DNA from: Clytia hemisphaerica
Taxonomy: Eukaryota > Cnidaria > Hydrozoa > Leptothecata > Clytiidae
Length of the DNA: 64,000 nucleotides
Direction of reading: 5' to 3'
NCBI GenBank assembly: GCA_902728285.1
Contig: CACVBU010000743.1
Span: 1,206,357-1,270,356 of the forward strand
Part shown: positions 6,039-51,430 of the stretch, in pieces
Layout: every line of letters begins with the position of its first letter
Position numbering within the stretch: the first letter of the stretch is position 1
Program-made: the position numbers and the translations under genes
Notes under the pieces: generated by a model
What the model saw: only the letters and a program-made list of their open reading frames with translations
What the model was told of the DNA's origin: nothing
The model's database searches: none

Positions 6039-6075
6039 GACTGGAAAGACATAAAAGCTAACGAGAAAAAGAAGA

Positions 6076-27363: not shown

Positions 27364-29498
27364 ATGGCTACCGACAATCCCTTGCATTTTGATAGAGACG
27401 AAGCTGTGAGTTTTTTGGAGAAATATACCTTTGGCATCGAAAAATTTCATCCTAAACAATTAGCATTGATAGAGGAGTTCTGTTTGGGGAAAAATATCTA
27501 TCTGAGTGCCCACACTGGCTTTGGGAAATCAATTGTTTTTCAGTCTATACCTTGGTTTTTTGACCTATCCAATGATCAAAGTCTTGGGACATCAACCCTC
27601 TTGGTCATTTCCCCGTTGGTCTCTTTGATGGAGGACCAAGTAAAATATTTAAAGACCAAAACATGCATTTCTGCAGTAGCCATCAACCAGACTACCGAGA
27701 ACCTAGATGAGGTACTTAAAGATGTTGAAGATGGCATTTACTCTCTTGTGTATACTTCACCAGAAAGCATGTTGTCAAAGGGTAGATTACGTCGACTTCT
27801 GTCTTCAGATAGCTTCCAAGATCACTGCATTGGTGTGGCCATAGATGAAGCCCATGTTATGGCAGAGTGGTTAGTAATATATGTATATGTCTTTTCTGTG
27901 TATTATGTTTTATATTGGCAAGGAGCATCACACCAATGTATTGGAATATCCATCCACAATTCCTTCTGTGCTTTTGTACTTCTTGTCTGCGCTATCTCGC
28001 AGGTTGATCAGTATTGAATTTTATTTTATGTAGACGTTTGTATGTTTATTTGTGTCATTCGTCATAGTCAATAATCGTCAAAATGTGACTAATGATTAGT
28101 TATTGAATGGTGATTTTCATTGTTCGACACTTATATTGCTTAGCTAGAGTTGAATCACGCTTGTTATTGCTTTCCTTTTTCCATTCTATTCAGGGGATTT
28201 GCTGATTTCAAAAAAAAGGTTTTCCGAAAATGGTACTCCAACCTTATTGAACTGAGGTCCCTCCTTGGAAGCAATATTTGTTTTGCTCTCTTCACAGCAA
28301 CAGCGTCTCGGTTGATGGAGCTCAAAATTTTTGAATCGCTTGGTTTAACACCTGATGATTTTACTTGTGTTGTTCTTGACCCTGATAGAAAGAACATTTG
28401 CTATCAAGTTCAAATGGTACCCAAGGTCAGTTTGTCCATTATTTTTGACTTTGTATTGCGTGACATTTTTGAACATGGTGATAGCTCTACAAGAAGACTT
28501 ATTTACTGCCAAACTAGAAAGCAATGTGCTATTCTTTACAACATGTTCCTCCTCAAGCTTGGTAGCAGCATGTATAGTGGTGGAGCTGAGCACCCAAAGA
28601 AGAAAAGAGTTGACATGTTTCATGGGGGAACAGCTGATTCTGTAAAGAGCCACATTTTGGAGGAGATCTCAAAAGAGGATTCTCATATCCGTGTGGTTAT
28701 TTGCACTATTGCATTTGGAATGGGTGTAAATGCAAAAGGTATAAATGAAAGTATTCATTTTGGCCCCTCAAAGTCAATTACGTCATTTGTCCAGGAAAGT
28801 GGTCGCATTGGTCGTGAAGGCAAACCAAGTGTGAGCAGATTGTTTCACACCAGCACACTTACTGGCAAAGTTGATACAAAAATGAAGGAGTTTGTTCATT
28901 CCAAAGACCAGTGTAGACGGAAGATCCTGCTTTCCCTATTTTCAAATTCAACATCAGCTGAATACGGCTGTGGTTGTGAGTGTTGTGAATATGTGCCTTG
29001 AAATGTGAATGTTCCATAAGTAAATGGGCACCTATTGATTTTACTTTGAAACCTCAGAATAATGACTCCAAAAGTCGTAAAACCTCAGATTCTGCCTTAA
29101 GCCTTCTTCATGAAAAGTTAGACGAGTTCCGAAGAAGCTTCCTTGAATTTGATGTAAAACCTGTTGGTGTTCCATCTGTATACATGGAATTTGATCACTA
29201 CCAAGTTAAATCGTTGGTTAAAAATGCTTCAAAGATCTTTTGTGTCACAGATGTCTATTTTTATGGTTTTGTTTGGAGATGGAAACATGCAAAAAGAGTT
29301 TTGAAGATTTTCAATGAGGTTTTTGAGGACATTGATGAGCTATTTTCTAGTTTGAATGAAAGCATGCCAGATTTTCATAACTCGCAAAGTTTAATTGGTA
29401 ATGAATGGTATGAGATTGCAAATGACACTTCCATGTTTGACACACTCAGTGATTCCATCATGAACAGTCTGCGTAATGACACCCAACAATCAGAATAA
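27364..29498 (+). CDS. RecQ-like superfamily 2 ATP-dependent DNA helicase, one frame break
   Basis: Exon 1 is 27364-27869 and exon 2 starts at 28194, after a GT-AG intron (GTTAGT...TTCAG) that splits Trp169 exactly. Helicase motifs follow in order: FHPKQ (28-32), motif I TGFGKS (51-56; RecQ usually has TGxGKS), Ia VISPLVSLMEDQ, motif II DEAH (161-164), III FTATAS (about 202-207), V TIAFGMGV (340-347) and VI QESGRIGREG (369-378). A Cys cluster CGCECCEYVP follows and the frame hits TGA at 28999. The other frame continues at once with KCECSISKW and runs to 29498, so a one-base frame break cuts a Cys-rich C-terminus. The tail, about 165 aa, is of unknown fold. Expected role: ATP-driven 3'-5' DNA unwinding in the nucleus. 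It differs from the conserved animal RecQ helicases and resembles lineage-expanded, transposon-like copies. Confidence 0.85.
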
Positions 29499-30241
29499 GG
29501 GCTAATTTTTCAGCATTCTTACTTACTTATAAAAATTAAAAAAAATCTTTATATACTACAAACTTTTTCTTTTCTCAAACCAATAATTAGAAAAAAGGCG
29601 ATGAACTAAAATTGTTAAATTCTGATCACATCTAATTAGGCCACACAGTCTTTTACCTACAGCAATTTAATCTTATGATTCCAGAGTTATTTAAATTGAT
29701 GTTAGTAGTTTTTTTACTTTAGTCTAATGGTTTTTTGTGATACAATTTATAATTATTAGCAATGCTTAAAGATGGAAAAACGGTGGCTTGTTCATTTTTT
29801 TCTGTATATCATTATTCAAACAAGAAGCAACCAGAATACTTTTTAGATATTTCTGAACTTTCTACTTATAGCAGGAATTTTTTTTTGATTAACACATTGA
29901 TTTAGGAATTTGACTTGATGTTTTGATTCAGAACACCCTGTACATTTTGAGCAAAAATAAAACTGGTATCACAAACATGTAACAAAGTATTTACAAATTT
30001 ATGTTCAACCAAAAAAGGTCCAAAATAATTCGATAGTTCAATCTGTTCTACTTCAATAAGGGAACTGATTTTTGCTGGAACAAATCTTTTCTTTTTCCAC
30101 AGTTTTTTGCCAAATCTGTAAAATTTTGAACCCCTGAAAATTTTAATTACCACGAAATGCAATTTTTTATATTTTTTAGGTTTTTTTTAATTAACTACTG
30201 CAAAAATTAGTTCCCTCAAGTTATTCAATAAAATCCACAGC
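29499..30241. other. Convergent intergenic gap between helicase and DUF6589-like gene
   Basis: AT-rich. I see no further exon for either gene. AATAAA sits near 29955 and 30226; read for minus-strand transcripts, neither is in a clear polyadenylation position. Confidence 0.4.
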
Positions 30242-33200
30242 CTATCGTACTGTCTTTTGTGTCCTGATTTGTGTTTTGTGATCTGAGATCCATTTGTAGA
30301 AATCAACAAAATCAAAGTCTTTGAGAAGACTGTCTTGGCAGTTTCTGAACGATGAGTATTTTCTCTCTTCGTTTTTGACTAAAGCTTTTTCTCTCATTAG
30401 TTCTTTCACAATTTTGAGCCTATCCTTTGTGTTTGCGGCTTTTACATGTCTACCAGACCTTTGGTGTATAGCTGATTGTTTATCAAAGTTTTGAAGAAGC
30501 TCTTTATTGTACGGCAATGCTTTCAAATACTTGTCAAGAATTTTTTCATCTGTTTGATGTGGTCCAAGTCTCTTTTTCAGCAACTTGACAACTTTAATCA
30601 AGTGCTCCAAACCCATGTCCAAAGGAATGTTACCACCTGAAAAGGGAAAGATAACAAATTTGAAACTTTTTTCAATTACCATCATGGTATTTCTCTCAAA
30701 AAAACCTACCATGCCAAGCAAGCTTTCGGAAAAGATTTGCCTTTCATCTTAAATACTCATTTTTGATTGAAAAATAAATAAATTGACAGTCCTCCTAATT
30801 AAAAATAAAACTCCTCAACAAACTAAGTACTAACCTTGAAATCAAAACATTTTCAGGGTTTTTGCTGCCTACTAGAATTGGTCAAAGTTGGTTCCATAAG
30901 GTTATTTATCTTTATTAAAAATTTGCTTACCAAGACCATTTTTTTTCTTGACAGACCGGTTCCAAATTAATCTGTATGCATCTTGCTCTGATAGAAGTGC
31001 AGTTACTTGGCAGAGTAGATGAAAGCCTTCCACTGCATACTTCCTACTTCCTGCTCCATCAACTTTCATGTATGGTAGCATGAACTTCCATGATCTTATA
31101 ATTCGGTCACCATCTCCTTCACTGATAGCATCTTTGAAATTTCTAATTAAGATCATGAATTCCATAACACTACATTGATAGTTGAACATGTCATCGTTGC
31201 TTTTATCATTGTTAATTGATGTCTTTGCAGCAACTGGAATTGGTTCCAAGCCATGTTTCTACAGTAAAAAAATCACAATATTCATACTTTATAGTTTTAT
31301 GGAAATGAATATATTTTTTATGTGTATGGGACATTGTTTTTATGTTTGTATTATTATGATATAGGATTATTATGTACTTTATATACATAATCAAAATTAT
31401 ATATATACCACCACAGGATAAAGTAGTAAATGCTATCCAAGTTAAATAAAAATTAAATTTTTTTTTTATCATTTTTTCTCCTTATCAAAATCAGTTTCCT
31501 TAAGGTATATGTTGATAAAAAATCTAGCCATAGGGAAAATACCTTGAGTTCGTGATCTCTTTTGAATTTCCCATTATTTTGATACGTCTGCTTACATCCA
31601 GGGTATCGACATTTAAACCGACCATTTTCGTCCGTCTCCTCAGTATCACTTGATTGCTGCTGAAAAAAATGCAAACCTAGCTAGTATTCTCCAAAAATCA
31701 TGAATAAATGATTTAAATATTGATTTTGGTTGTGTGCTAGAATCTTTTGAAACTTCAGAATTGAAACTTTCAAGTAAATTTTATGAAGAGTTTCTTCTCA
31801 AAGCAACTTGAATAGTACCTGTTTTTGCAAATTTTTCATTTTGAGAAAATCTTTCAGCTGGTCAGATTTCAAAATATATTTGTCCACAATTCTTTCAGCT
31901 AGATCTTTCAAAAATTTCTTTTTGGCTCTATTGTCATCGTCTGCTGGCAGCTCAACATCAGCTGGAATGTCCTTGACATCTTTGATTGACAATTCAACAA
32001 GAGCTGCAGCTATTATGCGAGCATCTAATTCCACCTTTAAAAAAGAGAATTCTAGGGGTTTGATTTAAATTTTACAAAATTTTGAGAAGCTAAGGAACTT
32101 AAATATCAACAAAATCTTGATTTGGCAGTTTTTACCAAATCTTGAAATAAAAAATTTAATACCTCTAAAAATTGCCTGCAAGCAGCATAATTCTTCTTAA
32201 CTTCAGTGACAACGTTTCTTCGATTAATGAGGATCTTATCTGTTCCCAAGGTGCATTTATCTGTGGAAGTCGTTGAGTAGAAATGGTTGAAGCAAACCTT
32301 AAAAAAATATTTAGGAAATATTAGCTTGTTGCAACCTGTAATACTGATAATTGAAGATGATTATTTTGCGTTTCAGAAAATATAGTAAAAAGTTTTAACC
32401 AACCTGCATGAACTTCATCTCAGTATGGAAATCTGCAATTCGAAATGCATCCCATCCAGTCGTTCTTCTGGGGTAAATCCATTTGCAGTTTGAAATTGAG
32501 AGTTGATGGCTCGCTCAACTGATAATTGGTCTCCAACAACAGCTAGAGTTCCAAGGTAGGTTTCATCATTGATCACACTTTTGGGTTGATATTGTTGAAA
32601 ATCTTTCAGAATCCGGGCAATTCCGTCAGAATCATTCTCATTTTCATAAACCATGCCAAGAGATTCTGAATGAAAATATATGTAAGAGCTTTTCTTAGTG
32701 TTTTTTTACCTTTACTGTGTAAAATTCTTTCAGCTGTATGTTAAAAATATTTCTTATGTCACACGTACAGGGATAACCCTATCTCTACTCTTAAAATCCA
32801 ATTTTCAGATGCAATTTTCAATATTTTTTCGAGCTAATTTAATTTAATTCAAATTCTATGCACATACCATTTGACATTTTTTCGACATTTCTTTGGAATG
32901 TTTGTGGGGTATATGCTTAACAACTGAATTTTCCATTGATCTTAGGCATTCAATGTCTTGGACAAGGATTCGCTGCACCAATGTGATATAATTGGCTCGT
33001 TGTTGTCTATGGTCATCTTTGTCAAATAGAAATTCTCCATTTGGAACATCATCTAATTTCTTCCTTGGAGTAACAGTGTCTAGATGATTTCCACCAACTC
33101 TGTTGATGACATAAGCCTTAACGCAATCGTGGGAGTCAATATTTTGGTTATCTTCAGTCATATCGCTCACCTTCATGTTAACATCAACATTATCAAACAC

Positions 33201-35305
33201 CGTCTAAAATAGTGTGAGTGATATTTTTAAATTTAAAAGGATCAATCGAATTTAAATAAATATTTCTAAAATGAAAAACCTTAAAAAGAGAACTAATATT
33301 GGAGAATTTGGCAAATTTTGTCAAAAATCAACCATTTTTAAATACCCCTTATTTTTTGTCAAAAACACTCATCTTTTAGGAACGTTAAAAAGTGTTTTGC
33401 TTCCTGCTAAAAATTCACAACAAAATTTTTAATATCATTAAAAATGAATGGAATCAATTGGTTTTCCAAATGGAATATTTAAAACTGAAATTTGAAACTA
33501 TCAATATCAAAAGGTTTTCCCACAGAAATTTGTACCATTCATGTCTTGTCCCTCAAGCAAGGATAACTGAACACAAATAGACAAAATAATGTTTTAGACT
33601 ACTAAGATTCTTTAATTTTGCTTTTCTCTCCATGATTATTTTAAAATAATTCTCGTCACGTCTTATGTGTCTTGTGCTAAGAAATATATATTTTCACATT
33701 TTTAAATATAAATTTCTTGATTTAGAATACCTCATCTCCAGTAAGAGTACACTCTTCCAAATGTTGCTGGTGCACCTTCTTGCTTTCAAATGCAATACTT
33801 CTCTTCAATGGAATATCATGATCCTTTCCATACTCGACAAGTTTCCGATAGTGAGTACGATGTGAAACAGCAAGGCGAATGGATTTCAGTCTGAGTATTG
33901 AATTCTGGAAAGGAAAACCGGTAAGCCGCTATTTACAAATTTAACAAACAAAAGGAGTTGCATCTACATGTCTTTCAAATTATTGACTTTAAATCTTTTT
34001 TTAAAAACGATGCCATGTTGAATAATTTTAAAACTCGAGCATCAAAGCAATGACAAGAAAATATCTAGTACACAATTTTATGATTCATGTATCTGTTTGT
34101 TATTGTTATCTAACATTAAACAATGATACCATTTTTCTCACCGTGTATGAGGAATGCTGCACTATAGAGGTGATAATCTGTTGAAGAGCAGTCATTCGGT
34201 AATTTCGGTTTTTGAGGCAAACTGCTGCTGATGTGACCATCGCTGATTTCCAATACTCATCTTTTTCTTCTGTTTTGCCAGTTCGAATGGTTGCTGTTTT
34301 TAAAATTGCCCGGAACAAAGGACATCTCTCTGTCATTTCCTCGTCAGCACGTTCAAAAGTGAAATTCAAAAGGTCCTCTTTTGAAGTCTTCTGAAAAATA
34401 CTTTTGTTAGCTACCTTCTCATTTTTGATTTTTGAAAAGGTCTTCTCTTGACACATTACAGTGCACTCTTTTTCTATCTGTTTCAGAATCAGAGGTATGA
34501 TTTCTTTTTTCACATCTTCATGCTTCCAAACCGCCCTTGCTATTGATGATGCATTTTCTTTGATAAGAGCAAAACCAATTGGGTTATAACTAGAATTGAG
34601 CTCTTGGTCATTAACCTGACCAGATGGCCAAAACGCAGTGACGTGAACTGTTGTTGTGAGAGGTTTATCTTGATTTAACTTGGTTTTTTTATTTTCAGGA
34701 AGCTCCGGCGGAGGTGAAATGAGATGTAATCTTGATAGGGGAGTGATGGAGGTGACATCAAGCTGGAACTGCTTTTCTGGGTGGCATTTCTTTCTTGCGT
34801 AAAGATGGTAAATTTGGTGGGGATGAAAATTTGATAGTACGTTGAATTGGTGTTGCCGTTTGTACCAAAAGCGAATGGAAAGTTTCCTCTGGTAAATTAT
34901 TCTTAATAAGATCTGATTTTGAAGATGGTGTAGCGAAATATGATGACGGCCATGAAGAATAGTCTATTTTCTGAACTGATGAGTTTGATTGGCAAAAAGG
35001 TGAGGGGCGCAAATTTCACTTTGGTACTTGTATAGGAGAAGACATCTGATCTTGTACTGGTTTATTGTTGTTGTTGAATAGTTATTTATTATTTCGTTCA
35101 ATAATTTATCTGTTTTTTCAAAAGTTAGTCTACTATCTTGTCTACTTTTAAGAAGCTTTTTACAGTCTTCACATATATATGGACTTGCATTTGTTATTTT
35201 AAGCGACAGATTGTTGATTTCATCACGTGGATTGAATTTCTTTCCTCTTGAATCCCATAGTTTAAATCTTTTTTTATTGAACAGGCTTTCCTGCAGACGT
35301 GACAT
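30242..35305 (-). CDS. DUF6589-like protein, nine exons, with frame breaks
   Basis: Exons, minus strand: 35305-34142, 33904-33731, 33203-32868, 32665-32404, 32297-32163, 32034-31819, 31659-31543, 31258-30931, 30636-30242, all with GT-AG borders. Exon 1 starts MSRLQESLFNKKRFKLWDS and holds a CEDCKKLL zinc-type motif. Exon 3 has VFDNVDVNMKVSDMTEDNQ and HIPHKHSKEM, exon 4 VVGDQLSVERA, exon 7 a C2H2-like CRYPGCKQTY...HELK, exon 8 EGDGDRIIRSWKFMLPY and LIWNRSV, and exon 9 GGNIPLDMGLEHLIK. These are signature blocks of the DUF6589 family as I remember it. Breaks: a shift near 35015, another near 34775, a phase mismatch between exons 3 and 4, and a shift near 32445. All other junctions keep phase. 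Function is unknown; the family is strongly expanded and transposon-like. It converges on the helicase gene. Confidence 0.8.
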
Positions 35306-37797
35306 GATTTAAATATTGCTTTTTTCATCTGAAAAGAGATTATTAAGATTTTTTAGATTAAATGATTTTCCTCAGTGAGTGCCTATCTCTAAAGGGGAAT
35401 TCAAGCTAGAGAAATTTCTTTAACAAGGTAATTTATTATTTGTTAGCAGTAATTTTATTTTGTGCCAATATTTATATTCATTGCAATTTACATTACTAAG
35501 CTAGATGTATCCCTTTTATGCATTTTAACGATTTATTTAAGTTTTCCTCCAAAATGCTATCGGCTACCTTACTTTTTCCTGCTATCTTCCAAATTTACTT
35601 TTTAAACTTTGATCCCCTAAAATTAACCTATGAAAAGTGGGAGAAAATGTGAACTAGTTTATGAGATATTTATATGAGATCACTGACTTTACTTTACTTT
35701 TGACACCTTCATTTGCATATATTTAACTTTTCCAATTTCAAGTTTAATCAAAATTAGAAAATCAAATTTTGCGTATATATATATGATGTTAAAACAATTG
35801 GCTGTGCTCTTTCTTGTTTGCTTAGAGAAAATTTTTACTCATACAATTATAATTAACAGTAAATTTTTCGTTTGCAATCTCATTGAAAAGAGTTGGTACG
35901 CCCAGCCTCGCAAGGATTTGATCCTCAGCTCGCACTGCACCTGTTCAATGACCTTAATTCTCTTATCCCTATTATACTGTCGTTTTGCATAAGATTCACT
36001 TAACTTCCCAAAAACTTATTTCCACTGCCACTTTTCTAGCGGATAGTTTTTATTTTTATCACAAGAAAAACAAGATCTATCATACCCTTAGAAAAAACCC
36101 TTCCCAGTCTCATGCCGTTAGCCTGGGGAAAATGACAGACAAATCCCAGAAAAAAGTCAGTGATGGTATCTTTATATCATATATAATACTATGAATTTTA
36201 ATATGTAATGGAGTTTTTTTATACAAAACTAAATTGTAATTATCTTTTACAATGAATTGTAAACAAACCCTTTATGTGTTCATATATAGAAGAGTAAAAC
36301 GATGTGGACTTTAAAAAGTACACAGGGACTTTCTCATTTAATATCTCATAAAAGTAATTCAATTTCAAGTATCTCGACATACAGCTCCTATGCTGTAATA
36401 AGACTTTATAGTGTATATAGTTAGATAAATAAGAAGGAAAGTAAAACATAAAGATCATCCCATTCCATTAAACATCACATCTTTCCTTCCTGATTTTCAA
36501 ATTAACCTGCTGCTGTATAGATAAATATGATTTCCCCGCTACTTTTCTACCATTATGAATAATATACGGCCCTTGTAATGTACGAAATGAAATTCAAATT
36601 TATGCGTGCATACTTTTATATTGTTTACGAAACTCGGTGGGGGCCACTAGTGCCCGCATATAGCAGTGCCTATAGACCAAGAGTAAGGCCTAAAAGCCTG
36701 GAGCTGTATATTATGTAGACTATTCAATAGGACACTCCTCTTTGAAAAAAGGTCTATTTGGATGTGTGTATTAATTATATCATTTGCGTAATCATAGAAC
36801 TTTGCATATAATTCAGGAGGCAGCGAGATTGAGCCTTTGGACTGATCAAATTACAACATGGGATTTACAGTCAAATGACAAACTCTAGGATTCGAGATTG
36901 CAAAATAAATTTCAAAACAGATAAATATTTTTTTGTATCAACAAGAATTCTATTTGGTGGGAATTTGTAATATATTTGTAGGTAATATAATGTAATAAAA
37001 TGTAATTCATGGAAAAGATTTTAATAATTTCAAATATCAAAACAACAATAATTTGATAGAATCTTCCTCACTCTATACACACACTTTTCTTGTTTTACAC
37101 AGTACCTACAGCTATAGATAAAACTCTCAAAAAATTATGGCTTTGTTTTGCTCTTTTGCTGTTTGCTTTTCATTAAATATTTATGGTTTCTGTTTTATTT
37201 TTTTATTATTATACAAAGAAAGAATGATTTGTTTAATTACTTCATACTAGCTATAAGAATTTTGTCATGATTACGAAGCCTTAAGTAGCAAAATAATACT
37301 GTATTTATCTATTACTTTTTTATAAGAACATTTCGAGGTTTAAAAAGATTAAAGATCAGGAGAAGCCAAACCCCAATGAAAATTAATGGTTTTTGTGAGA
37401 AAAAAGATTCACTTTCCATACTAATTCCGACTAAAATTTTGATGTAAACCTGATAAAGGTTGCCGTTTTAGCCAATCTAGAAGAGCCTATTTTCAAAATT
37501 TTCTGGCCCGTCGGCCCCAACCATGGTGGGGCCTCCTTATATACTATATAGAGCAATTTAGTTTTTGCATGGCACCCTCCAAATCCTACATCCGCCCCTG
37601 TCAATGCCGAAGTCGACTTTGACAACACATTAGGCTCAGCGAATGCAAATCAAATACCAATATAGTCATTACACTCTTTTGAATTTAGTGAAAAGGGTTA
37701 CAAAGCCTGGAGGTAATATGGAATCGGTGCTGGAGTATTCCATCCTCTTTCACCAAGTTTTGAATTTCAAAGTAACTTCATAGAAATACACCCTTTT
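35306..37797. other. Intergenic AT-rich stretch
   Basis: No coding frame I can support. Holds a CATATAGCAGTGCC patch near 36655 and a GC-richer patch with CCCCAACCATGGTGGGGCC at 37514-37532, a dyad similar in style to the one near 4276. Nothing else recognised. Confidence 0.4.
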
Positions 37798-38819: not shown

Positions 38820-41154
38820 AACTTGCGATTATTTGTACTTGCTTTCATCTGATGATCTTTCTAATATTTCTTCGAGAATACAATGATCCAGTTTTATTTA
38901 TATTATTTTGACATAGGTTACGCATTTTGATGTGGTGTTTTTCAAGCAAACTTTCATTATTATATTCATGCTGAACTTTAGGGTTCTAAATTTTTTCAAA
39001 TTTAGTGATATTTCTAATATTTCTAATAAACTTCCATTTTATATTCAACAAACATTAATTTTCATCAAAAGGTTGGTTCTCAGGATCTAAAAGACTTTGG
39101 ATTATCACTTTTAGGCTAGATGTGGTCAAAAAAATTTTATTTTCTTTATTGTTACAGATAGTACTTTTTCATCAAGCAACTAACTGACAAAATTACGACA
39201 AAAAACTATGTAGCCACGTAGCCACAATTTCAGTTAAAAGCATTGAACTTTTGTGTAGTTGTCTTTAAAAGGACTAAGGAATGATTGAATGGTAATTTAA
39301 AGTTTATTAGGGCTGGTTTTTATCCTAAAAATTTAGGATTTTGAGGAAACTTCTCAAGAAAAACTGCGAACTAGAAATTGGCATATTTACTCCCTGATTT
39401 GACACCTGTATCCCAGATGCCAGATAATGAAAACCACAGATTGCTTTCCTCTATTATCTATCAGAAAATATCATGTCATATCAATGTCTCCAATAGTTAA
39501 AAATCTAATTTCGTACACCCTAATACTTTTTTATGGGTCAAATGGGCCCAAAAATCAATAAAAATAGATAAAAATCCACTATTTTACCCCCTGGTTTGTC
39601 CAGTTGCACTCTGAATGTGATAGTTTCAAATCAGAGTTGTAATTTTCCAGAGTATATTACACTAAGATCAAGTTAAAACTATTTTCGAAGATATTTTAGG
39701 CGAGATAAGCAGTGAAAATTGCTCAAATTGTGTAGAAATTCAATAAAATGGGCATTTTTACCCCCTGAAGCGTCAAAAATGAAACTGAATACAGTTGACA
39801 AGAAATTTTTCTGGTGTATCGTATTAAATTTTATCATAACACAAAGTTTGTGCCTCATTAAAAATTTTTCCCTATTTTGCCCCAGGTAAACCCCCAAAAA
39901 TAATTTTTCGCAAAAATCTTTTGCCAATGATGATCACCCATGTAACTTTTGGCAAAGTTTCAAAGCAATTTGGTCAATTCATTCATGAGATATAGCAAAT
40001 TATATCATACATGGGAAGATATTTTCCTTAACAAATCCTTACAAAGGGTAAAAAGTAACCCCAATATGAAAAATTGACCAGGAGTTAGCTTTGGGGACCG
40101 ACCATTTCTTAAATTAGGATAGTTGAGGATTCCAAAAATATATAGTTTATCCTGTAGAATCTAGGGTTAAGCAAAAGTGCTCATTTAAGGAGATATAGGA
40201 TTTGGCTCCCGGACTATCTGGAATTTAGCAAATTTAAGGCTCTTTTCTTTATATTAGGGAGAGTATTTCTAATCAATTTTCTACTTTATTCAATTCAAAT
40301 ATGAAGAAAAGTGATGCGCGGACATTTTCACACATTCTTGCCAAAAAGTTGCTTTCCCGGGCATAAGACTCTGGTTTTTACAGACCAAAATTGTCATTTT
40401 TAGTCTAACAGTGGGCAAAAATTGAGATTAATTTTCTTTATTGTTAGGGATAGTATTTCTGATTAATATTCCATTTTATTGACGTCATAGTTCAGGGTAC
40501 CATTTTGAAAAACTCAATATTTTTCAAAAATCGCATACTGAACCGGCCATATTTTCAAGATAACTAAAAATGATTTGAATCTGAGAAAGCACAATTCCAA
40601 CTTGAAAATGAAATAAACTCCAATGAACAAAAATGGCAAAAACTTATAATTGCCATAAATCTGCCATTATGGATTTTTGGACCAAATTCTTTTGAGATTT
40701 TGCTCAGTTTATTATACTGAAAAACATATCCAAAAATGAAGAAAATCTAAGTTTCAAACTATTGGACCTGCCCCACTCATAAATAAAACTGGCTCTTAAA
40801 AACGAGCGCAACCGGCAGTGAATATTTCGACCTGTTTTGCAAACGGACAACCAACAAGCCAAGGTATCGCTATGTTTTCTCCTACCAAACGGCGCCTGCC
40901 GCATGGAAGAAGCAATGATATCAAAAAGTCCTGTTAAAATTGCCAAATATAACATTTCAAAGTATTTGTAAACCAGAAGTCCGAAATCAAGACATGTGAT
41001 CCTGCAACCGTGAATTTCAAGTATAATAACGAGCTGACAACCGACAATGTTGTATTTCTCAAAGACCTCCGCCAATTTGCTAATGGTCAGTTGTTAATGC
41101 TAAAGTTTATTTGTACAAGGTTGGAGAAATCGAGATTATAATGCACACAGAGGG
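38820..41154. other. Intergenic AT-rich stretch, probably old repeats
   Basis: No gene recognised. Minus-strand open frames at 39679-39927 and 40704-41075 lack any recognisable domain and I leave them out. CCCC-containing words (ACCCCC, ACCCCAA) recur from 39540 to 40060, which suggests an old repeat. Confidence 0.35.
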
Positions 41155-41878
41155 ACAATACTGAAGAGAGAAATCATTCCGAGAGACGATCAAATCTGTC
41201 AAAAATGACCCTATACGGTGAGCAAACAGAAGCTGATTTGGAACAAGACAAATGCTATAAATTATTATTATTATTTTTATTTATTATTAATTGTATTTCA
41301 GGCACTTCCATATATCTCAATGGCTATTCGTCCTATTTATAATAAGTAAACTAAATAAATAAATAAATAAATAATTATTAAAAAAAATTATAGATAATTT
41401 TCAATTTGCCAAAATAAATTAATAACTCTACGATTGAACATTACTAAAGACACCATGTACAAACACTACACTTAATAAACCCTTCGAATATGAAGCAACA
41501 GAGGAGATGGACGGCTTGGAAATGGCAGACGGAGCAATATGCCAATCAGAGACGAAATTCATTGGCCACGTGGTGGGGGTGTCATCCATCGATATAAATC
41601 ACTTATGTCTAGCGTGCAATAGAAAGTGTACCGTAACAGAATCGATGCTGCGTTGCGATAACTGTGAAACAGTGTTCAAGTTCTCATTGTGTGAAAGTCG
41701 ATGGTTCATTAAAATCATGGTTAAAGATCTAGCGTCAAAGGAATTTTACAAATTGGCTTTCACTAACGATCAAGTTAATCAACTGTGTAAAACACTGGAT
41801 CACGAGCTTACAACTGAGCAAGCGTCTGTAAAGCGTTTGTTTGAAGTTACTGAGCCATTAATTATCACATTTGACTAA
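41155..41878 (+). pseudogene. RPA-like OB-fold / zinc-ribbon protein, partial and frame-broken
   Basis: A first block (41155-41264) reads TILKREIIPRDDQICQ, then in another frame MTLYGEQTEADLEQDKCYK. This is the middle of an OB fold, with the usual LTLxGE motif, broken by one base near 41203. A TTATTA-rich stretch follows. The second block (about 41437-41878) starts TLLKTPCTNTTLNKP, continues through the acidic YEATEEMDGLE, and then has a CLAC...CDNC zinc ribbon inside an OB-like region (LCLACNRKC, LRCDNCETVFKF), as in the C-terminal DNA-binding domain of RPA1. It ends at TAA 41876-41878. Family knowledge predicts single-stranded DNA binding. The N-terminal OB fold is missing. Confidence 0.65.
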
Positions 41879-43205
41879 AGAAGGTGTGTGATCCGTTAAA
41901 TTGCCGACGGAAGATTGATACATTTTTAAAGGAAATTTTTTATTTAAACAAACTTGATCTCAAAAACATATATGATTTTTCTTTGTTTCAACATAATCTG
42001 TCCGACTGAAATTTTTTCCGACTAAGTTTTGTCCGATAAGGTATTTGATAGACTTAGAATAAGAAAAAAATACAACAATATTTTTGTACTAGCAAGTAGC
42101 TTTCGCTATGATGCTCCCGATGACAGGCATTTGACATTGATTGACTGAAATTCAGAAAAGGCGAAATGATGTGTTTATTTTTGTCAGAAATACAGTGATA
42201 TTGCAAAGTATTTAATTTTTCTCAGCCATAGCTTGCACTAAACATGCCCCCTTTAATAATACCTTATAAAGCTTGAATTACAAAGCTTTTCACGTTTTAT
42301 AGGCAGGGTCTTGGTATAATCTTCAGGAAATATTTAGAATGACTTTCTTCTCGAAAGCATTTTCTTTGAAACAACGATAACAAAAATAAAAATACAAACA
42401 TGTCAAACTGAATTATAATTTCCAAGACTATATTTTGACAGTAATATATTTTTCAGCTAAGTTGTTGTCTATATCGTAATGTAATATTGTTTTCTAAAGA
42501 ATGCAGTGGGTAGAAAAGCAATCTAAAACCAAAATGATTCAAAATACAAAATACAACCAACCAACAGGAACATAACATGAAATATCCTTCATGAATCGCT
42601 TCCAACAAAGGAGTGTTAATGTCAAGTTTGTTACCGTCAACTGCTCTAAAATGGGATTACTTGAGATAACATGGGACATACTGCTTCTGTCAGCTTTTTC
42701 TCTCTATCGTCACATCCTCTTCAACACAAACAGATTTCCATGTTTCTTGGACAGTACAAAAAGGATGATTCTGCGGAGGTTCGGTTAAAATGATTGCTGT
42801 TTTGGTGTCCCATTGCACAAACATTGCACAGCTCCATTAAAAACGCAGACAATTCATTCCATTCTTGTTCAACATTTTTGAAGTCAAAACTCTCTTGTCA
42901 TTAAAATGTTATATCAAAATGAAGTTTGATTGATTGGTTGAACAACTGCTATCTTTGTGCAAACTCAGCGTATTTTGAAGCAGCGATTCAGACCTCGTAA
43001 AACATATAATGTCAATCTGGCTTTAAAAGCAGTTGACGGTACATCAACATGTAAAACTACTTTAATGGTTAATATGGGTATTTGTCATGGTGAATGAACG
43101 AAGGCTGGGAGGCAAAATCATTTAAAGCTGAAATAGGAATAGAGAAGAAGAAACTGTCAATAGATAATTTGTAATAAATATCCAGGTGATGTCAATCAGA
43201 CTGTT
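41879..43205. other. Intergenic AT-rich stretch
   Basis: No coding frame or repeat that I can support. It ends at a foldback element. Confidence 0.35.
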
Positions 43206-43420
43206 TGATTACCGTGAAAAAGGGTAATCACTGGAGGGAAACTGGTATCGCCTCCAATAGTAGAGCTTTCTGGTAATAAAATTGTAAGAATTCAAAATCA
43301 AAAACATTAATTTACATTTTAGCTTAGACAAAGTGCAGACAAGAAAGCTCTGCAGTTTGGAGGCAATGTAAAGTTTCCCTCAAATGATGCAAATTACCCT
43401 TTTTCACGGGTACCAATCTA
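43206..43420. repeat. Foldback element with arms of about 70 bp
   Basis: Left arm 43206-43271 (GATTACCGTGAAAAAGGGTA ... AGAGCTTTCT) matches the complement of the right arm 43342-43418 (AGAAAGCTCT ... TACCCTTTTTCACGGGTA). Shared internal words include GGAGGGAAACT and CGCCTCCAA/TTGGAGGC. The spacer is about 70 bp. Non-coding; a MITE or SINE-sized foldback. Confidence 0.75.
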
Positions 43421-45571
43421 ATCTAACATTATCAAAACGATAGGTGTTAGATTACCGCAACCAAATCGAACAGTCACGAAACTAAAAGATTCTGGTAAAA
43501 GTGAATTATGTTCGAACGACCCTGCCGATTCCCCGGACTCCAGGGATTTTCTTGTTGCGTGTCCGAGGATTTTAACATTGCTTTTTGAGACTTACCCCGG
43601 ACTAAACGCGTGGTCTGCGAGACGTACTTAAACAATTGGGCGATCACGCATGGGCGTCAATTTCACCATCCCTATTCTGCCTGCTTTCATGCAAACTTAA
43701 TCGGCCTTGCGTTAACTCGTGACAACACGTTCACTTATCCAGCCGCGTGGTTCACTTATCTGGTAGCGCAATTTGTTTGTCTGGGGATAGAAAATTTTCT
43801 TTCGTTCGACAGGTCGTCTTCGATCAGGTTCAGTAACCAAACACCTACAGTTTGATTCTGTTTGATAAAATTTGATAGTTCAATTGCAAAAATTTGGATC
43901 AATAGAATTCAATTGACATCGCCTGGAGATAAACAGAAGGTTCGTTAATGGTGGTATGCAAAGCTTTTTCCAATTTCTGATAATACTTACCCAAAAGTAA
44001 CAGTAAAGTAACTGATGCCTGATTATACAACAAGGATACAAAGCAAAAAGAAATTCTTTAAAATAAATTTCAATCATACATCCTTTGAAACATTACTTTT
44101 GATGAAATAGTATTAATTACTATCAAAGTTGCAGAACAGTATATGGGATTATACCTTCTTCTTTCTGAATCTGAAACCAACTGGTCCCAAGTTGCTTCGT
44201 TGCTTTTTGTTGTTGTATTCCAAGCTATGACTTTGGAGCGCTAAAGAGGCTAAATTTCTGTTTACGCGGTGTTGTTGTATTCCAAGCTATGACTTTGGAG
44301 CGCCAAAAACGCAAAATATCTGTTTGCGCCGTCGAGCTAGCTTAAAAGCTCACCACACGGCAATCTTTTATTAGATGCGGTCACTAGGTTACATCGTCCC
44401 GTTTTCTTGAACAATTTTTCGCCAGCTCAATCCCCAGCACGGCCTCGTGAAGCAACATAAGCTCCCTTCGGGAGCAATAACCAAAATCTATATAGTCAAA
44501 AGAATCTTTTCAAAGGGTAAAAATTGTCAGAAAATTTTAAACCTAATGCAAAATGATAATCAACAGGTACAAAAATTCATGAGAGCACAAAGCACAGAGT
44601 TTCTTTGATCTTTTGAAATTTTGAAAGCACTATTGAATACATGACCTGTTTTCAAAAATGTCCACGTGTGCTATCGACGCCTACGTTCCTACTGTCATCG
44701 GTTTGTCAAAAATAAATTGAATGCATGCACAAAACGCAATGAATGACGTAGAATCCGAGAATTAATGTTAATTGATTTGATACTTGTAAAATATTTTATG
44801 CTATTAGGTGAGACCAATTTAATTTGTTGTTCTACGGGCGCGACCGACCCAGCATTTGCTGCATACGAAAAAATAATAATATTGAACTTCCTATGCCACA
44901 AATTTCTAATGCTAGTTAAAAATTTAGTTAAAATTTCTAAGATGTCATTGATGTAAATAATTCATTGATCGCCATTATTTTAACTGGAGTACTGGCATTA
45001 ATTTCAAAATGACAAACACGTTTCCGAATACTTTTAATCGAATACAATGCTTGGACGAGTTAATTAAAGAAACAAACATTTCGGCCAAGATTTTTAAGGC
45101 CTAGCTGTCCTTGATTGCAAATATTCATCTTTGCAGAACAATGTAAAGTGACAATTAATTATTAGCTGGTGGTGTTAGGAGTATTATCACAACTCTGTTG
45201 GAGTGAAAACCTTTACTACAGTTTCTACAGAAAATGTGCAAAGTTAAAAACCAAAAAGTAAATATACTTCCCTAGCTAGCTGGAAACAGTTGAACAAACC
45301 ACCAGAAAAGATTGATGATGGAAACCAACAGCAGTGGTGAGCCAGACCAGACACAGCAAAACAGTAATATGAATAACAACAAGTCTTGCAAGAGCAGATA
45401 ATCCAAACACAAAAATAATTGTGCAAAATAATATGTTGATAAGATATACGAATTATGTTGATTAGATTCTAACAGACTATAATAAATCAGATCCTCTTCT
45501 TTTCTCAAAATTTGTTAAAAATATTCATAAAAAAATCAACAATCAATCAAACCAGTGAGTGATAGGCAGAC
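43421..45571. other. Intergenic stretch between two foldback elements
   Basis: Contains a two-copy tandem duplication at 44209-44329, a small hairpin GCTCCCTTCGGGAGC at 44461-44475, and some GC-richer sequence near 43500-43800 with no supported gene. Confidence 0.4.
44209..44329. repeat. Tandem duplication, 62-bp period, two copies
   Basis: GTTGTTGTATTCCAAGCTAT starts at 44209 and again at 44271. The first halves are identical through CTTTGGAGCGC and the second halves have diverged moderately. Confidence 0.85.
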
Positions 45572-46148
45572 AGATCCACAGCAGACAGAAAAAGCTTTTG
45601 TAGGTGCCTAAATAGTCCCTAATAGCAACAGCTTCAAAAAGTCAACCAATCAGGTTCAGATAAATCGGCCAATAAAAAAACATAGTCTACCAGTTTGCTA
45701 GTAGCGCGGGAAAAAAAAAATGAAAGGAGTTCTCTTGGTGCAACATGAGGATTTAGTGCGAAAACGGAGCGATCTGAGGAAAAACGAGTGTCATGTAGTC
45801 ATTCACAAAAGAAAAAATGTTTAGCTCACATATAGGGACCAATTTAGTATATCGCGCGCACATTTTACCAAACGAGATACGCGCTGGAAAAATGTGCGCG
45901 CGATATACTAAAATTGGTCCCTATATGGCTAAATATTTTTTTAAATTCAGTGTTTCGTGCATGACTACATGACTCGTGTTTCCTCAGATGGCTCCGTTTT
46001 CGTACTAAATCCTCATATTGCAGCAAGAGAACTTGTATGATTGGTTTGTTTTCCCCGTTTTCCCGCGTGTTTATTCATTTGAACCGGTTGCTATTGCCTA
46101 CCTACAAAAAACTTCTCTTCTTGTCAGCACATCAGCTTGCTGTGGATT
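45572..46148. mobile_element. Long foldback element, arms of about 280 bp
   Basis: The sequence folds on itself from GATCCACAGCA (left end) and TGCTGTGGAT (right end) inwards. Matching stretches include TTTTGTAGGT/ACCTACAAAA, AATAGCAAC/GTTGCTATT, GCGGGAAAA/TTTTCCCGC, GAGGATTTAGT/ACTAAATCCTC and GGGACCAATTT/AAATTGGTCCC. The centre is a CpG-rich TATATCGCGCGCACATTTT and its complement, with a loop of about 20 bp (45868-45888). The arms differ by scattered substitutions and small indels, so it is not a recent insertion. No open frame, no clear target duplication. Confidence 0.85.
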
Positions 46149-46186
46149 AGATTGGAATGGCAGCGCAAAGAAGTGATTAAAAATCA

Positions 46187-46440
46187 AAGAAGTGTTTCCT
46201 GATTATAAATCATAATTCTTTGAAAGAAAATACATTTTGACAATGTTCCATATAATGAATACAACATTTAGAAAAAGAGAATTTCCTCCTTCCTCTCTCA
46301 GAAAAAAGATTTCAATAATTAAGAAAAATCAAAAGACAAATAACATTCTCCAGACTGTCCAGATTGAACGTACTTACTAAAATAAATTGTTCGAAAACAT
46401 TCCAAAACATTTCGCAAATTTCACCTCATTGATTTCATCG
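46187..46440. repeat. Dispersed repeat, copy 2 (direct copy of 10437-10640)
   Basis: Starts AAGAAGTGTTTCCTGATTAT and ends CACCTCATTGATTTCATCGAG. It lacks the stretch of about 120 bp that copy 1 has after 10665. The last words are also in the LINE endonuclease relic near 10800, so the repeat overlaps the edge of that LINE copy. Confidence 0.8.
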
Positions 46441-46768
46441 AGTCTGATTTTTTTTCTAATTTTGAAAAACCCAATTATCACAATTTTTTTCTTCCAGATT
46501 TTGAACTCTCCCAGGTGAAGTTGACTGCTATGTATTACAACGTATACTTCCAGGGTTATATGCAGCCATTTTTTCCTTGGTAACCGCGTTTCTAATAGGG
46601 GTGGGGGGTCCCTTTTTTCCTTAAAAATGTTAGCACCTAGGCACTAAAACGGGGGTGGTGGTATCAAAGAGAAATTTTTCTGAAAATCAGGGTTAGTCCT
46701 GCAACTGTTCCCCCTCTGGCTTAAATCTATAATTACTTAATTCCCTTTTTAATTGTTTCTTTTCTAAG

Positions 46769-47939
46769 GTTGTTAGATTTTTGAAATCTATATCGTGTGT
46801 TGAGGCTGTTCAAAATAGATTTATTGAAGAGAAGGTAGTCATATTTGATTTTTTTTCTCAACTTTAATTCGAGCTAGAATTAGCATAGCAAAGTGCTCTT
46901 TATCCGTCTGTATGAAATGTCATATGGACCTATGAAGTATTAAACGATGCTCTTGTAAAATAAACCTAATGAATATTTAGCTAGACTGGTATTGAAGTCA
47001 AAATACAAGGTTCCTTTTCCATATAACTTAGGATGAAAGTGACAGCTTCATTTCATATTTTGTTGCCTTTTCCTCTCAGATGACGCCCGAAAATATTATA
47101 AATGCAGACGATAACATCCTCAAAAGGCATGGCTTGTTAGCGGTTGGAGACATTATCAGACTTCGAGTGTTCTGCTGCTTGATTGACGAAAACTCAATAA
47201 AAGTTGAAGAGTTGAAGAACACACTAAACACGTCTTCTAACAGTCAACGTCAGCAACAACAAAGTAACAATGAGCTTAAATCAAAAACAGTATATTACAC
47301 ATGGCAGAATTATGACCATAATTCCAGGAAATATTGCATTGTTAAAAGTAGTAAAGGGGGTGGACCAAAGAAAAAGAAAACGAGCTCAAGGGATGAACTT
47401 CTAGAATTGTGCAAGGAGATGTACTGGGACAAGATGGTAAAAAAACATTTTGATGATAATTCTAGTTTTCAGTTAGCCGACTATGCTGGAAATGCTATTA
47501 CCAACACTTTGAGGGATGAAGACAACAATGAATCACCTTTCACAATTGGGAACTTGGTTAAAACCCATAATTTACATCGTTGTCGCATTTTCTTCAAAAC
47601 ACGGTCGATAACATTCCGCGATTTGATTAATACAACTCGGCAAATTTTTCAAGTGATCCTGATGATGACGACCTTCCACCATCCCTTCCACCAAGAAGGA
47701 ATATCTCAACAGCATCTACATTCACACCACACTTTACTGCTCCAACAACCTCCACACCAAGCTCTACAGCAACCCCCACCGTTAGTTCAATTGATTTGAC
47801 AAATATATCTTCTAATAGAGAATATGTTACAACAGTGGAACAAGAAACTAGTATCTCATTAGAGAAAGAAGAAAACACATCAGAAGAAAATGAGTATGCA
47901 TCACTGCATGAAATAAGTGTCCAAAATTTGAATGTCTGA
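46769..47939 (+). pseudogene. SAM-domain protein of the HECT-associated type, truncated and frame-broken
   Basis: Exon 46769-46834 (VVRFLKSISCVEAVQNRFIE) splices in phase to 47080, where the text continues MTPENIINADDNILKRHGL and VGDIIRLRVF. Together they give helices of a SAM domain (F-L...F...I--MT---I....L...GL..GD...L). Next come a Gln-rich linker, then YYTWQNYDHNSRKY, a Gly-Gly-Gly/Lys patch (GGGPKKKK), RDELLELCKEMYW and FTIGNLVKTHNLHRCRIFF. I remember this arrangement from cnidarian and fish proteins that end in a HECT ubiquitin-ligase domain. Near 47605 the frame breaks; the continuing frame has a TAA at about 47620, then SSDPDDDDLPPSLPPRRN and a Ser/Thr/Glu tail to TGA 47937-47939. 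No HECT domain follows. Confidence 0.6.
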
Positions 47940-49086
47940 AAGCGAATCTATGAGAAATTCTTTTCTGCGCCTCAAGTATTCTCGATCACGTCCAACGTGC
48001 TCACTCGTCTTCTGAAACAGTATTTAGTTGATACAAAAAAAAAACAATCTTTTGGTATAAGATTGTTTTCCTTTTACTAAAGGGAAGGATAATGTTTGTG
48101 TTTTCGATGTATTTACTTTTGCTAGTAAACAGAATTCGTTTCTATACAATTGAAAATAAAATCGATAGAAATGTACAAGAATAAATAATATATGGGTTTT
48201 GAATAATTTATATATTTCAGAACAAGTACACACCTTTGCTCTATTCCATAAAAATTACACTGAGAAATTTCCAACTTAGAACTTAAATTATAGACCATGC
48301 TTAGACATATATTGTATCAACAAGAGAAAAACAAGAATACTAATGCTCGTCAACCTTATTCAAAAGCCGTGTATCTGTTAAGAAAAAAAGGCTACTTTTC
48401 ACATTAGCTAAAAAATATATCATAAGCTATTATATAATATTGATTGTAAAGAAAAAAACAATTATAATAAATATTCTAACCAGGTTACCCAAGAAAAAGT
48501 TAGGATATTTTCTCAACGTTTTTAGGTCAAAAATATATCCGAAAAAGCTTAGAATTTTAAGATCTTAAAAGTAGATATCATAACTCAAAGTCTGAGCGTG
48601 TAACTTTTTGAGTAATCAGTGAAAAATAATCTAAATAATTTCAAAACTTTAGAATCAACTTAGTCAGAAAATGCTGTTAAAATATTTTAGAAATATTGAA
48701 AAAAGAAAAGTCTTCTCTACTTGAACCCAAAGAAAAAACAGGAATTATCAATGATGTTGAACAATCTCTATGAGCACTTTAGTTGTAAAACCTGTTGCAA
48801 GCAGAGACTGATAAATTTACAGTTATTTTTCAGCGCTAAGGGCTTGCAATACTTTTGATCTATAAGAAAGCTCGCGCGCCTAAATAAACATTAGTCAAAG
48901 TCAAAGAGCTGTAAGCGTGTTCTTGAAGTATATTTGCCCTTTAAATCTGCTTTTACAAAAAGACGGACATATTCATTCAATAAACTGCCTTGAAACTTTT
49001 GAAAATAGTCAATCAGCTAGAGAGTGAGCAAACTATTCATCCTCATTGTGGCTGGAGATCAAGTTGAACTTTTTTATGGCAGCTAA
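47940..49086. other. Intergenic AT-rich stretch
   Basis: No coding frame found. In particular, I looked for a HECT domain downstream of the SAM protein and saw none. Confidence 0.4.
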
Positions 49087-49293
49087 CTAAGAAGCTGACC
49101 ATTTGGGCTCAGGCCTCAAAGAACCAGGTCCAAGAACACTTTTATAGCTCTGAAATTTGGACTATTGACTTCTACTCTGAACATGATGTTCGTCCAACAC
49201 CTTGAATAATTCGTCTATTTTCTTTGGTCTCCAAGTAAGTCTTCTAATGGCAAAAATTTTTCCATCAACTTCATCTTCATCTGACGATTCCAT
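49087..49293 (-). pseudogene. C-terminal fragment of a transposon-type protein
   Basis: The minus-strand frame from ATG 49293 reads MESSDEDEVDGKIFAIRRL, then TWRPKKIDELFKVLDEHH, and hits TAG at 49162-49164. The same frame goes on SYKSVLGPGSLRPEPKWSAS to a TAG at 49087-49089. An acidic stretch, a (L)xWR...F..LD helix and a GPxSxRPxPxW tail form a pattern I associate with the C-terminus of lineage-expanded, transposon-like animal proteins. I cannot name the family. The internal stop suggests a relic. It follows the next minus-strand gene within 25 bp and could be its terminal exon in another frame. Confidence 0.4.
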
Positions 49294-49314
49294 TTTAACA
49301 GCAAGGACTCTTCT

Positions 49315-50568
49315 CTATAATTGTTTTGAGCATGCATCCAATGTTGAGTCGTTCAATGTTGTTACACGTGTTAGGAGTTTCTGTCGATGAAGAAGTAATT
49401 GATGGAATGTGAGATTGAAATACAAACGTAACATGCAAATAAATATATAGAAATAGAAACTCACTTGTTCTTTACGGGATTTTTTGCCCATATCCTTCAG
49501 GTAGTTGGGATTCTTCTTCAAACGTCGTTCAGTATCTCGCATCGACTTACGTATGTGTATTGCATCTGAATAAATGAAACAAAAACAAATCATGATATAA
49601 GCTGCCCAATTTAGTCAAAAATGCACTCTTCTGAAAATACAGAGCAAAACAATTCGCATTGATGAAAGGTACAATTAAAAAACCGTTGTTACTAAAACAG
49701 GTAACGAGTGGTAAGGAGGTAACGAGTAGTAACCAGTTGAAAACGGTGGCCCTAAGTCTCCAAATTTGAATTTTTCGATTCTGATGGCTCTTGACGTTCT
49801 GCAGCAGGACCTGGCAGATCTGGTGAATGTGTAGCAGGAATTGGAGATTAAGTTGGTGATTCTGGCGAATGTGCATCAGGAATTGGTGGTTCTGGTGAAT
49901 GAAATGGTGGAATTGATGGTTCTGGTGAATGTGAATCAAAGATTGATGGTTCTGGAGGTTCTGCATCAGGAGTTGGTGATTCTGGCGAATATGCATCAGG
50001 AATTGGTGGTTCTGGTGAATGAAATGGTGGAATTGATGGTTCTGGTGAATGTGAATCAAAGATTGAAGGTTCTGGAGGTTCTGCATCAGGAGTTGGTGGT
50101 TCTGGTGAATGTAATACTAGAGTTGATGGTTCTGGCGAATGTACAGCAGGAGTTGATTGTTCTGGTAAATGTGAATCAAAGTTTAGTGGTTCTGGAGGTT
50201 CTGCATCAGGAGTTGGTGATTCTGGCGAATGTGCATCAGGAGTTGGTGATTCTGGCGAATGTGCATCAGGAATTGTTGGTTCTGGTGAATGTGATACTAG
50301 AGTTGATGGTTCTGGTGAATGTACAGCAGGAGTTGATTGTTCTGATGAATGTGCAGTAGGAGTTGGTGGTTCTGATGAATGTGCAGTAGGAGTTGATGAT
50401 TCTGGAGAACATGCAACAGGAGTTGGTGATTCTGGTAAATGTGCTGCAGGAGTTGGTGATTCTGGTAAATGTGCAGCAGGAGTTGGTGATTCTGGTGAAT
50501 GTGCAGCAGGAGTTACGGATTCTTGTGAATGTGCAATAAGAGTTGGTAATCTAAACTTTTCTGTTTTG
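49315..50568 (-). pseudogene. Proline-rich tandem-repeat protein with C-terminal basic exons
   Basis: On the minus strand, 50568 to about 49760 encodes some two dozen decapeptide repeats such as HSPEPPTPDA, HSPESPTPAA and HSPEPSIPPF. Every 30 bases keep the frame, which argues for real coding. A TAA at 49848-49850 interrupts a late repeat; the frame then continues HSPDLPGPAAERQEPSESKN. Exon 49565-49465 (AIHIRKSMRDTERRLKKNPN, donor GTGAGT) and exon 49380-49315 (KLLTRVTTLNDSTLDACSKQ, stop) follow in phase. The basic exon resembles the helix ahead of BEN or other DNA-binding domains, but I do not recognise it. A Ser-Pro-Glu-Pro repeat is likely disordered and a phosphorylation target. The N-terminus is not found. 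Confidence 0.5.
49802..50550. repeat. 30-bp minisatellite (coding on the minus strand)
   Basis: About 25 units of the form GGTTCTGGTGAATGTGCAGC plus AGGAGTTGAT with variants at fixed positions. A higher-order 90-bp or longer pattern is visible: GAATCAAAGATTGATGGTTC recurs with the GGAGGTTCTGCATC variant near 49930, 50050 and 50170. The period is a multiple of three. Confidence 0.9.
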
Positions 50569-50569
50569 T

Positions 50570-51014
50570 TTTAAATATTGAAAACTGTATGAATTATTTT
50601 GCTGTCTTTAGATTTTTAACAGGCATGTTTAAGTTTCTCTAAGGGTAACTTTTTCGCCTGTTAACCCTTTTGGATTTTTGGGTTGCTCCACGGGTAGAAA
50701 GGTTGGGATAGTAAATTTTTCGTCTATTCGATTCTGACCCTTTTATAAACAAATCAAATTTTCATGAAAATGTTGTTTGATCCTTCAACTAACATACTGA
50801 GCTAACAGTTAAAAATGAAGTTTTTAACAGGGTATCCTTATTTCATCAACAGTTCTTAAAGTTTAAATACCTTTCCAACCTTTCCTCACGTAATAGGCCC
50901 AAAATGAAATGTAAAAATTTTCGGTGACGGTATCTGGAGTTAATTGTGTCCGGTATTCCGGTAATTAACCCCCCATGTTACTGCAACTCAACCCCAGACC
51001 ATCTCTTCTGAAAG
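50570..51014. other. Intergenic spacer
   Basis: No gene recognised. It lies between the proline-rich gene and the PHD exon, and the 5' exons of either gene could lie here unseen. Confidence 0.3.
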
Positions 51015-51219
51015 TCCAGCATCGATCTGGTCCTACCTAATTTAACAAAAAAGAAATCCCAACGGTTTTTCAAGTGGATAAAGGGCTCTGACTTTGAATG
51101 GATCCAATGTGATAGGTGCGACCAATGGTTCCATCTTGAGTGTTCTGGTGTTCCCTACGACAAAGAAAAATATCATAATTTTGATTATGCAAATATGGAC
51201 TTTTCCTGTTACATTGAAG
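51015..51219 (+). pseudogene. Isolated PHD zinc-finger exon
   Basis: An open frame bounded by a possible acceptor (TTCTGAAAG) and a donor (GAAG/GTTAGA). It reads SSIDLVLPNLTKKKSQRFF, then EWIQCDRCDQWFHLECSGVP and a final DFSCYI. The W-x-Q-C-x-x-C-x-x-W-[FY]-H-x-x-C core is diagnostic of a PHD finger, which usually binds histone H3 tails. The first zinc pair would have to be in an earlier exon and the last Cys pair is incomplete: only one of its two cysteines is here. I found no neighbouring exons, so this may be a gene fragment or one exon of a gene with long introns. Confidence 0.6.
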
Positions 51220-51430
51220 GTTAGATTTTACATTTTTTATTTACAACAAAGATATATTTTCATCTTTATTTAATCATCTTAATTTGTACACATCTTAAGA
51301 AACAATAAAAGATAAAATAAAATACTGTCACGTCTTGCGCACGTTTCGTTTTTCCTCGACTCGCCTGTTAATTTTTTGTAATTTCCAATTTTCTTCTTCA
51401 AGTTAAAGACCTTTGGTTTTAGTTATTTTT

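Follow-up and report, generated by a model that had tools for sequence, protein, structure and literature searches.

A RecQ helicase gene and a DUF6589 gene form a probable AcademH-like DNA transposon in the genome of Clytia hemisphaerica

The window analysed here comprises 64,000 nucleotides of the Clytia hemisphaerica genome (C517:1206357-1270356; C-numbers denote contigs of the host's own genome, 417 Mb in 951 contigs, which was searched for copies). At 27180-36722 on the plus strand it contains an AcademH-like element of 9543 bp with two convergent genes, one for a RecQ-type helicase and the other for a DUF6589 protein, delimited by ends that it has in common with other copies, which are flanked by 9-bp target duplications. 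A preliminary description had joined these two genes with four more, named RPA-like, C2H2/WPE, SAM/HECT-type and PHD finger, in a single 24-kb cluster regarded as a candidate giant element.

The RecQ-type superfamily 2 helicase gene occupies 27364-29498 (plus strand) and consists of two exons, the second starting from about 28194 at a predicted acceptor, as defined by Pfam matches, PDB matches and open reading frames (ORFs). The stretch 27352-29498 (plus strand) matches Pfam DEAD (2.2e-13) and Helicase_C (1.5e-12), with RecQ_Zn_bind remaining under its cut-off (19.3 of 25 bits), and a 284-aa piece of it matches the solved structures of RECQ5, RecQ, WRN and BLM helicases (best 3e-17), which bears out the name given to this gene in the preliminary description. 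The reading frame in the window is broken near the overlap at 28989-29001, and in the relative from C854 the two open stretches that contain the exons measure 175 and 450 aa, the longer being the counterpart of the broken exon. Between the window and C349, 8 synonymous and 20 changed codons were counted out of 609; in C480, 4 and 6 of 607 differ, and C327 has one stop in RecQ.

The second gene runs on the minus strand from 30242 to about 35302 (the gene start is approximate) in about nine predicted exons, and includes a C2H2-like finger at about 31543-31659 (minus strand); it was delimited using Pfam, ORFs and the C854 relative. The DUF6589 assignment made earlier holds, with a Pfam match of 2.6e-13 in one window frame, on the minus strand and in exons. 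The window gene has at least two frame breaks at which the matching C854 exons are open, the finger exon excepted, and the exon-joined C854 relative covers positions 14-410 of the 410 of DUF6589 with 5.3e-47. The joined protein contains, in order, a Cys-rich N-terminus, FDNVD (450), VVGDQL (602), DGMH (630), the C2H2-like finger (781) and DMGLE (930). The GDQL and DxxxE motifs resemble the second Asp and the Glu of an Asp/Asp/Glu (DDE) transposase core, and the first Asp may perhaps be found in FDNVD, which sits upstream of the Pfam DUF6589 domain. The comparison of the window with C349 gave 13 synonymous and 7 changed codons out of 588 in the core, where the five apparent stops per copy mark the points at which the chosen open frames terminate, and 7 synonymous and 42 changed codons out of 271, with two stops, in the N-terminal exon, suggesting that the core is under some constraint.

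The genome contains many further DUF6589 genes: there were 356 candidates, and the 102 that were scored gave 105 matches. Eight of these genes are single open frames close to full length (610-626 aa); some of the eight score equally and could represent the two haplotypes of a single gene. A profile of two such single-exon proteins matches the RecQ-linked protein in three stretches, which cover positions 2-105 and 159-482, and the GDQL and DxxxE site is kept between them. The same search gave no DUF6589 matches in 14 control genomes. Among viral contigs, 162 pattern matches to the core were obtained, none of them confirmed, and among phages there was no match; a PDB search with the exon at 34109-34963 also returned no matches. 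A 9-bp duplication would suit MuDR/MULE transposons, and Pfam scanning of the two genes gave no match to a MULE transposase domain.

The left terminus of the element (27180-27246, plus strand) is an imperfect inverted repeat starting with TAGGCTACGTCATAT. Its start is identical in C480, C97, C327 and the two C349 copies, and the same start, slightly diverged further in, is found in C854, C594 and C398. This left border is common to copies in differing flanks, as seen in contig stretches aligned with the window; the exception is a flank common to C327 and the second C349 copy, which represent one insertion seen twice. The right terminus (36635-36722, plus strand), ending in GTATATTATGTAGACTA, has the same end in C480 and C349 and is represented by its last 38 bp in C97 and by 88 bp at 93% in L037, one of the miniature inverted-repeat transposable elements (MITEs) described below. 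The nine bases to the left of the C480 copy, TTCAATAGG, reappear at C480 142134, where they immediately follow a sequence that ends in ATATTATGTAGACTA; the same rule holds in C349 and C97, and in the window this right end lies at 36722. The termini are imperfect inverted repeats of each other: when the left end was aligned to the reverse complement of the right, the score was reached by none of 1000 left-end shuffles.

Exact 9-bp target duplications flank all seven other copies in which both ends were read, namely three elements with two genes each, which belong to two families, a 2.9-kb copy with an internal deletion and three MITEs of 330-342 bp. The duplications are TTCAATAGG in C480, TATTGAATA in C349, GGTTTAGAC in C97, GACTTTGAG in C854, and GAAATTCAT, AGGAAATTG and ATTAGAACC around the MITEs L037, L038 and L039, respectively; in four of the seven copies the duplication can be read as 10 bp if the last base of the element is counted. 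Common ends, terminal repeats and target duplications, which the preliminary description had proposed to look for, were all found for the RecQ/DUF6589 unit.

Searched with 1 kb of the RecQ gene, the genome yielded three near-identical full matches (C517 itself, C97 and C480), split matches in C349 and C327, a partial match in C13, and a group at 73-79% comprising C854, C558, C398, C594 and C548 together with a short match in C851. The RecQ/DUF6589 pair stands in the same order at C480, C349, C854, C558 and C398. Four contigs of the 73-79% group (C854, C558, C398 and C594) carry elements of a second family with about 67-83% identity to the window over the longer matching stretches and with the same gene order, RecQ forward and then DUF6589 reverse, as far as the copies go. 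In its outermost bases the C854 copy (432206-441512) agrees with the window element. The C97 copy is reduced to 2,930 bp: its RecQ part remains, followed by 240 bp of other DNA and then by the final 38 bp of the element. The assembly may contain both haplotypes, so that copy counts may be doubled. Flank and insertion are shared at about 98% between C327 (L005/L007) and C349 (L004/L006), the copies in C398 and C558 have the same 12 bases before the left end, and C548 and C851 contain the same internally deleted copy. At C327:310530-320918 (L020/L021) a RecQ element copy is split after its first 260 bp by about 10.4 kb, probably a nested insertion.

With the first 151 bp of the element as a query, 776 first-look candidates were obtained; the best 40 were scored, and every one of them matched, in 31 cases with a match that spans bases 1-110 at 94%. 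Three places were read as MITEs of 342, 330 and 342 bp. L037 and the window element have 110 bp of the left end and 88 bp of the right end in common, at 93-94%, and the identity of L037 to L038 and L039 is 94-99%; these three MITEs are observed, and the size of the whole family would be an extrapolation.

Terminal inverted repeats are a feature of AcademH transposons. The title of the paper that describes these transposons (Kojima 2020) names animals and fungi as hosts. A passage of PMC10045372 gives target duplications of 9 or 10 bp for AcademH and of 3 or 4 bp for AcademX, seemingly tied to helicase and nuclease, and the part of PMC10799480 consulted attributes DEAD/Helicase_C domains to AcademH, KolobokH or Helitron. 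The element studied here is likewise a DNA transposon with a helicase gene, exact 9-bp duplications in seven of seven copies and a helicase of superfamily 2 (DEAD and Helicase_C, with RECQ5, RecQ and WRN as the nearest solved structures). It is filed as AcademH-like because the helicase and the duplication length both fit, while the target of KolobokH does not: Kolobok transposons duplicate TTAA, the difference that also sets apart Kolobok-1_CCri, a rhodophyte member of that superfamily, and a Kolobok or KolobokH identity was rejected given the seven different 9-bp duplications. Helitrons are helicase-carrying eukaryotic transposons, some with RPA-like genes, that have neither inverted ends nor target duplications; they were rejected as well, as both features are present here and no Rep or Pif1 match was obtained in the Pfam scans made, which in six frames at E<=0.5 covered 35800-45701 and 46600-51599 and outside which lay 29498-29899, 45702-46599, the plus strand of 29498-35799 and the minus strand of 27351-29899. 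In the part of PMC9587614 consulted, KolobokH is said to encode a RecQ helicase and a DDD/E transposase, and Kolobok-1_CCri to have its RecQ helicase on the strand opposite the transposase, as is the case here. Another RecQ-bearing kind of repeat, that of fungal subtelomeres, is mentioned in a passage of PMC4522978 and was considered and set aside.

Taken together, it is quite reasonable to suggest, with a probability of about 0.78, that the genes for the RecQ helicase and the DUF6589 protein are those of a single DNA transposon (27180-36722), which is of the AcademH kind or closely akin to it. Two of the six genes are explained in this way by a real transposon of an ordinary kind, probably one already described.

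Several observations weigh against this reading. The window copy has both ends but is flanked by different bases, AATGGTCCT on the left and TTCAATAGG on the right, i.e. it has no target duplication. Eight loci outside the count of seven copies have no placeable right end in the stretches read (the second C349 copy, C327, C13, C558, C594, C398, C548 and C851); of these, C594 has its nine left bases repeated only inside the element and not beside a terminus, and in C398 a right-end-like stretch at 560972-561033 is in the opposite orientation. Codon changes show no clear selection on the helicase, in which constraint is not evident. Finally, the putative DDE assignment of the DUF6589 protein is drawn from motifs, and the probable membership in AcademH from the helicase and the duplication length.

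In the proposed mechanism, the DUF6589 protein would be an Asp/Asp/Glu-type transposase with a zinc finger that binds the terminal inverted repeats, excises the element and joins it to a 9-bp staggered cut in the target, the repair of which would give the 9-bp duplication. The RecQ helicase would probably unwind or remodel DNA in strand transfer or in the repair of the wide stagger, and the same proteins would presumably mobilise the internally deleted copies and the MITEs of about 340 bp that have both ends in common with the full element. The exact 9-bp duplications and the DDE-like motifs fit ordinary DDE transposition of a putative cut-and-paste type, and no sign of the replicative transposition implied by the toolkit of a replicating transposon, as the gene set had been called, was seen here. 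Exact ends, gene order, duplications and MITE progeny are now defined for a helicase-encoding DNA transposon, and a candidate function, that of a transposase, can be offered for the DUF6589 domain. With such a defined two-gene element it becomes testable why an unwinding enzyme is carried and whether the stagger in the target owes its width to this enzyme.

An unlikely alternative is that the element is a non-Academ helicase-carrying DDE transposon from a separate superfamily that has not yet been named and in which DUF6589 is the transposase. This would be in line with the many DUF6589 genes of the genome and with the papers searched, none of which mentions DUF6589 and among which PF20231 turned up only in an unrelated one on nanophotonics; against that, Pfam may simply not have named the domain, and a helicase combined with a 9-bp duplication is exactly what the passage of PMC10045372 reports for AcademH. 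In a broader form, which we put forward very tentatively, DUF6589 (listed as of function unknown) would be the transposase of a distinct eukaryotic superfamily of DNA transposons, divided into single-exon lineages and lineages that carry RecQ and move MITEs, with their 9-bp duplications, by the hundreds.

The left flank of the AcademH-like element in the window is an array of about 37 units of a 388-bp satellite at 12692-27179 (Tandem Repeats Finder, 99% matches), which contains long runs of units identical to one another. The junction at exactly 27179/27180 falls in the middle of a unit: the 20-mer leading up to it occurs 38 times, continuing 37 times as satellite and once as the element. The satellite was rejected as a part of the element, there being no satellite match in the stretches read of C97, C480, C349, C327 and C13. 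The window block 27180-46907 recurs in order at C480 132038-149768, and the homology to C480 ends on both sides within about 20 kb, short scattered repeat matches aside. In 500-bp bins the identity is 98-100% up to 35679 and then 91-94% up to 36679; beyond the element it is 98% in the first 2 kb of flank and 93% near 45-47 kb. The window copy is accordingly a damaged hybrid or the end of a duplicated block, with a satellite junction on the left and the flank of the C480 insertion on the right, and the hybrid could have arisen by exchange between two copies, by segmental duplication or by an assembly join. That the copy and its 10-kb flank were instead moved by faulty one-ended transposition, in which the left end was genuine, 46907 served by chance as the right end and host DNA was carried into the satellite, seems improbable. 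The block does start exactly at the left terminus, where the satellite unit is cut, and the homology to C480 is bounded on both sides as described, but this is a single case with no duplication seen at the outer ends and with uneven identity along the block, and equally good explanations are exchange between two copies, a segmental duplication of the ordinary sort that changed later, and an assembly join.

The right flank (36723-46907), which lies outside the element and includes the stretches named C2H2/WPE-like and RPA-like, is shared with C480 142134-149768, where 42088-44477 and 45754-46016 have no counterpart. This DNA from 36.7 to 46.9 kb is regarded as flank because in C480 the 9-bp duplication TTCAATAGG sits between the element and the shared DNA. 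After the right terminus, no window match above 120 bits was found in C349 (2.4 kb to the contig end) or in C97 (17 kb read), and in C854, where 287 bp were read beyond this terminus, the element with its duplication ends there. Within the flank, 36756-37601 is a dispersed repeat of about 846 bp: in a search with 36723-38723 (619 candidates, 40 scored, 75 matching pieces) many places match only bases 34-879 of the query or parts of them.

The single 24-kb cluster is divided by the sharp element end at 36722, and since the other genes lie beyond this end the idea of one giant replicating transposon fails, the RecQ/DUF6589 unit having its own separate ends. Although the block 27180-46907 stands in order at C480 with the left end of the transposon as its left limit, a giant element is very improbable and refuted as stated, given that the C480 duplication flanks only the 10-kb RecQ/DUF6589 unit, that the insertions in C349, C97 and C854 stop at the same terminus, each with its own duplication and, in C349 and C97, with no window match above 120 bits thereafter, that no inverted end or duplication was seen at 46907 (by eye, in the junctions printed), that part of the flank is another dispersed repeat, and that not even the block shared with C480 extends as far as the PHD gene. 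What stands of the preliminary description is a mobile element that carries a helicase, with RecQ and a second protein as its gene set, a pair that recurs in this order at other loci; its ends leave out the four remaining proteins, and a new type of giant element is not established by this locus.

The PHD finger itself, at 51093-51182 (plus strand), was correctly recognised and exceeds its Pfam cut-off (25.9 bits against 24). Besides it, the six-frame scans gave only sub-threshold matches, to ubiquitin carboxyl-terminal hydrolase (UCH, 0.0066; 45003-45101, minus strand), PCDH15_12th (0.11) and ATP-synt_E (0.18). The ORFs 37717-38028, 38107-38415 and 41438-41875 match no Pfam family at E<=1, and 47032-47796 has only sub-threshold matches to Spc29 and KGK. 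The names RPA-like, C2H2/WPE and SAM/HECT, for which no Pfam family was found in the stretches scanned, come from reading by eye.

The 2.4-kb stretch at 42088-44477 is present in the window and missing at the C480 counterpart, owing to an insertion here or a deletion there. The sequence at 45708-46055, largely missing at that counterpart too, is palindromic (self-inverted at 80%) and looks like a MITE inserted after the loci parted. A 461-aa open frame at 4707-6089 (minus strand) has a sub-threshold match to DUF1280 (E 0.00042), and a 30/120-bp tandem repeat at 49851-50547 contains a minus-strand open frame of 240 aa rich in Ser-Pro-Glu-Pro.

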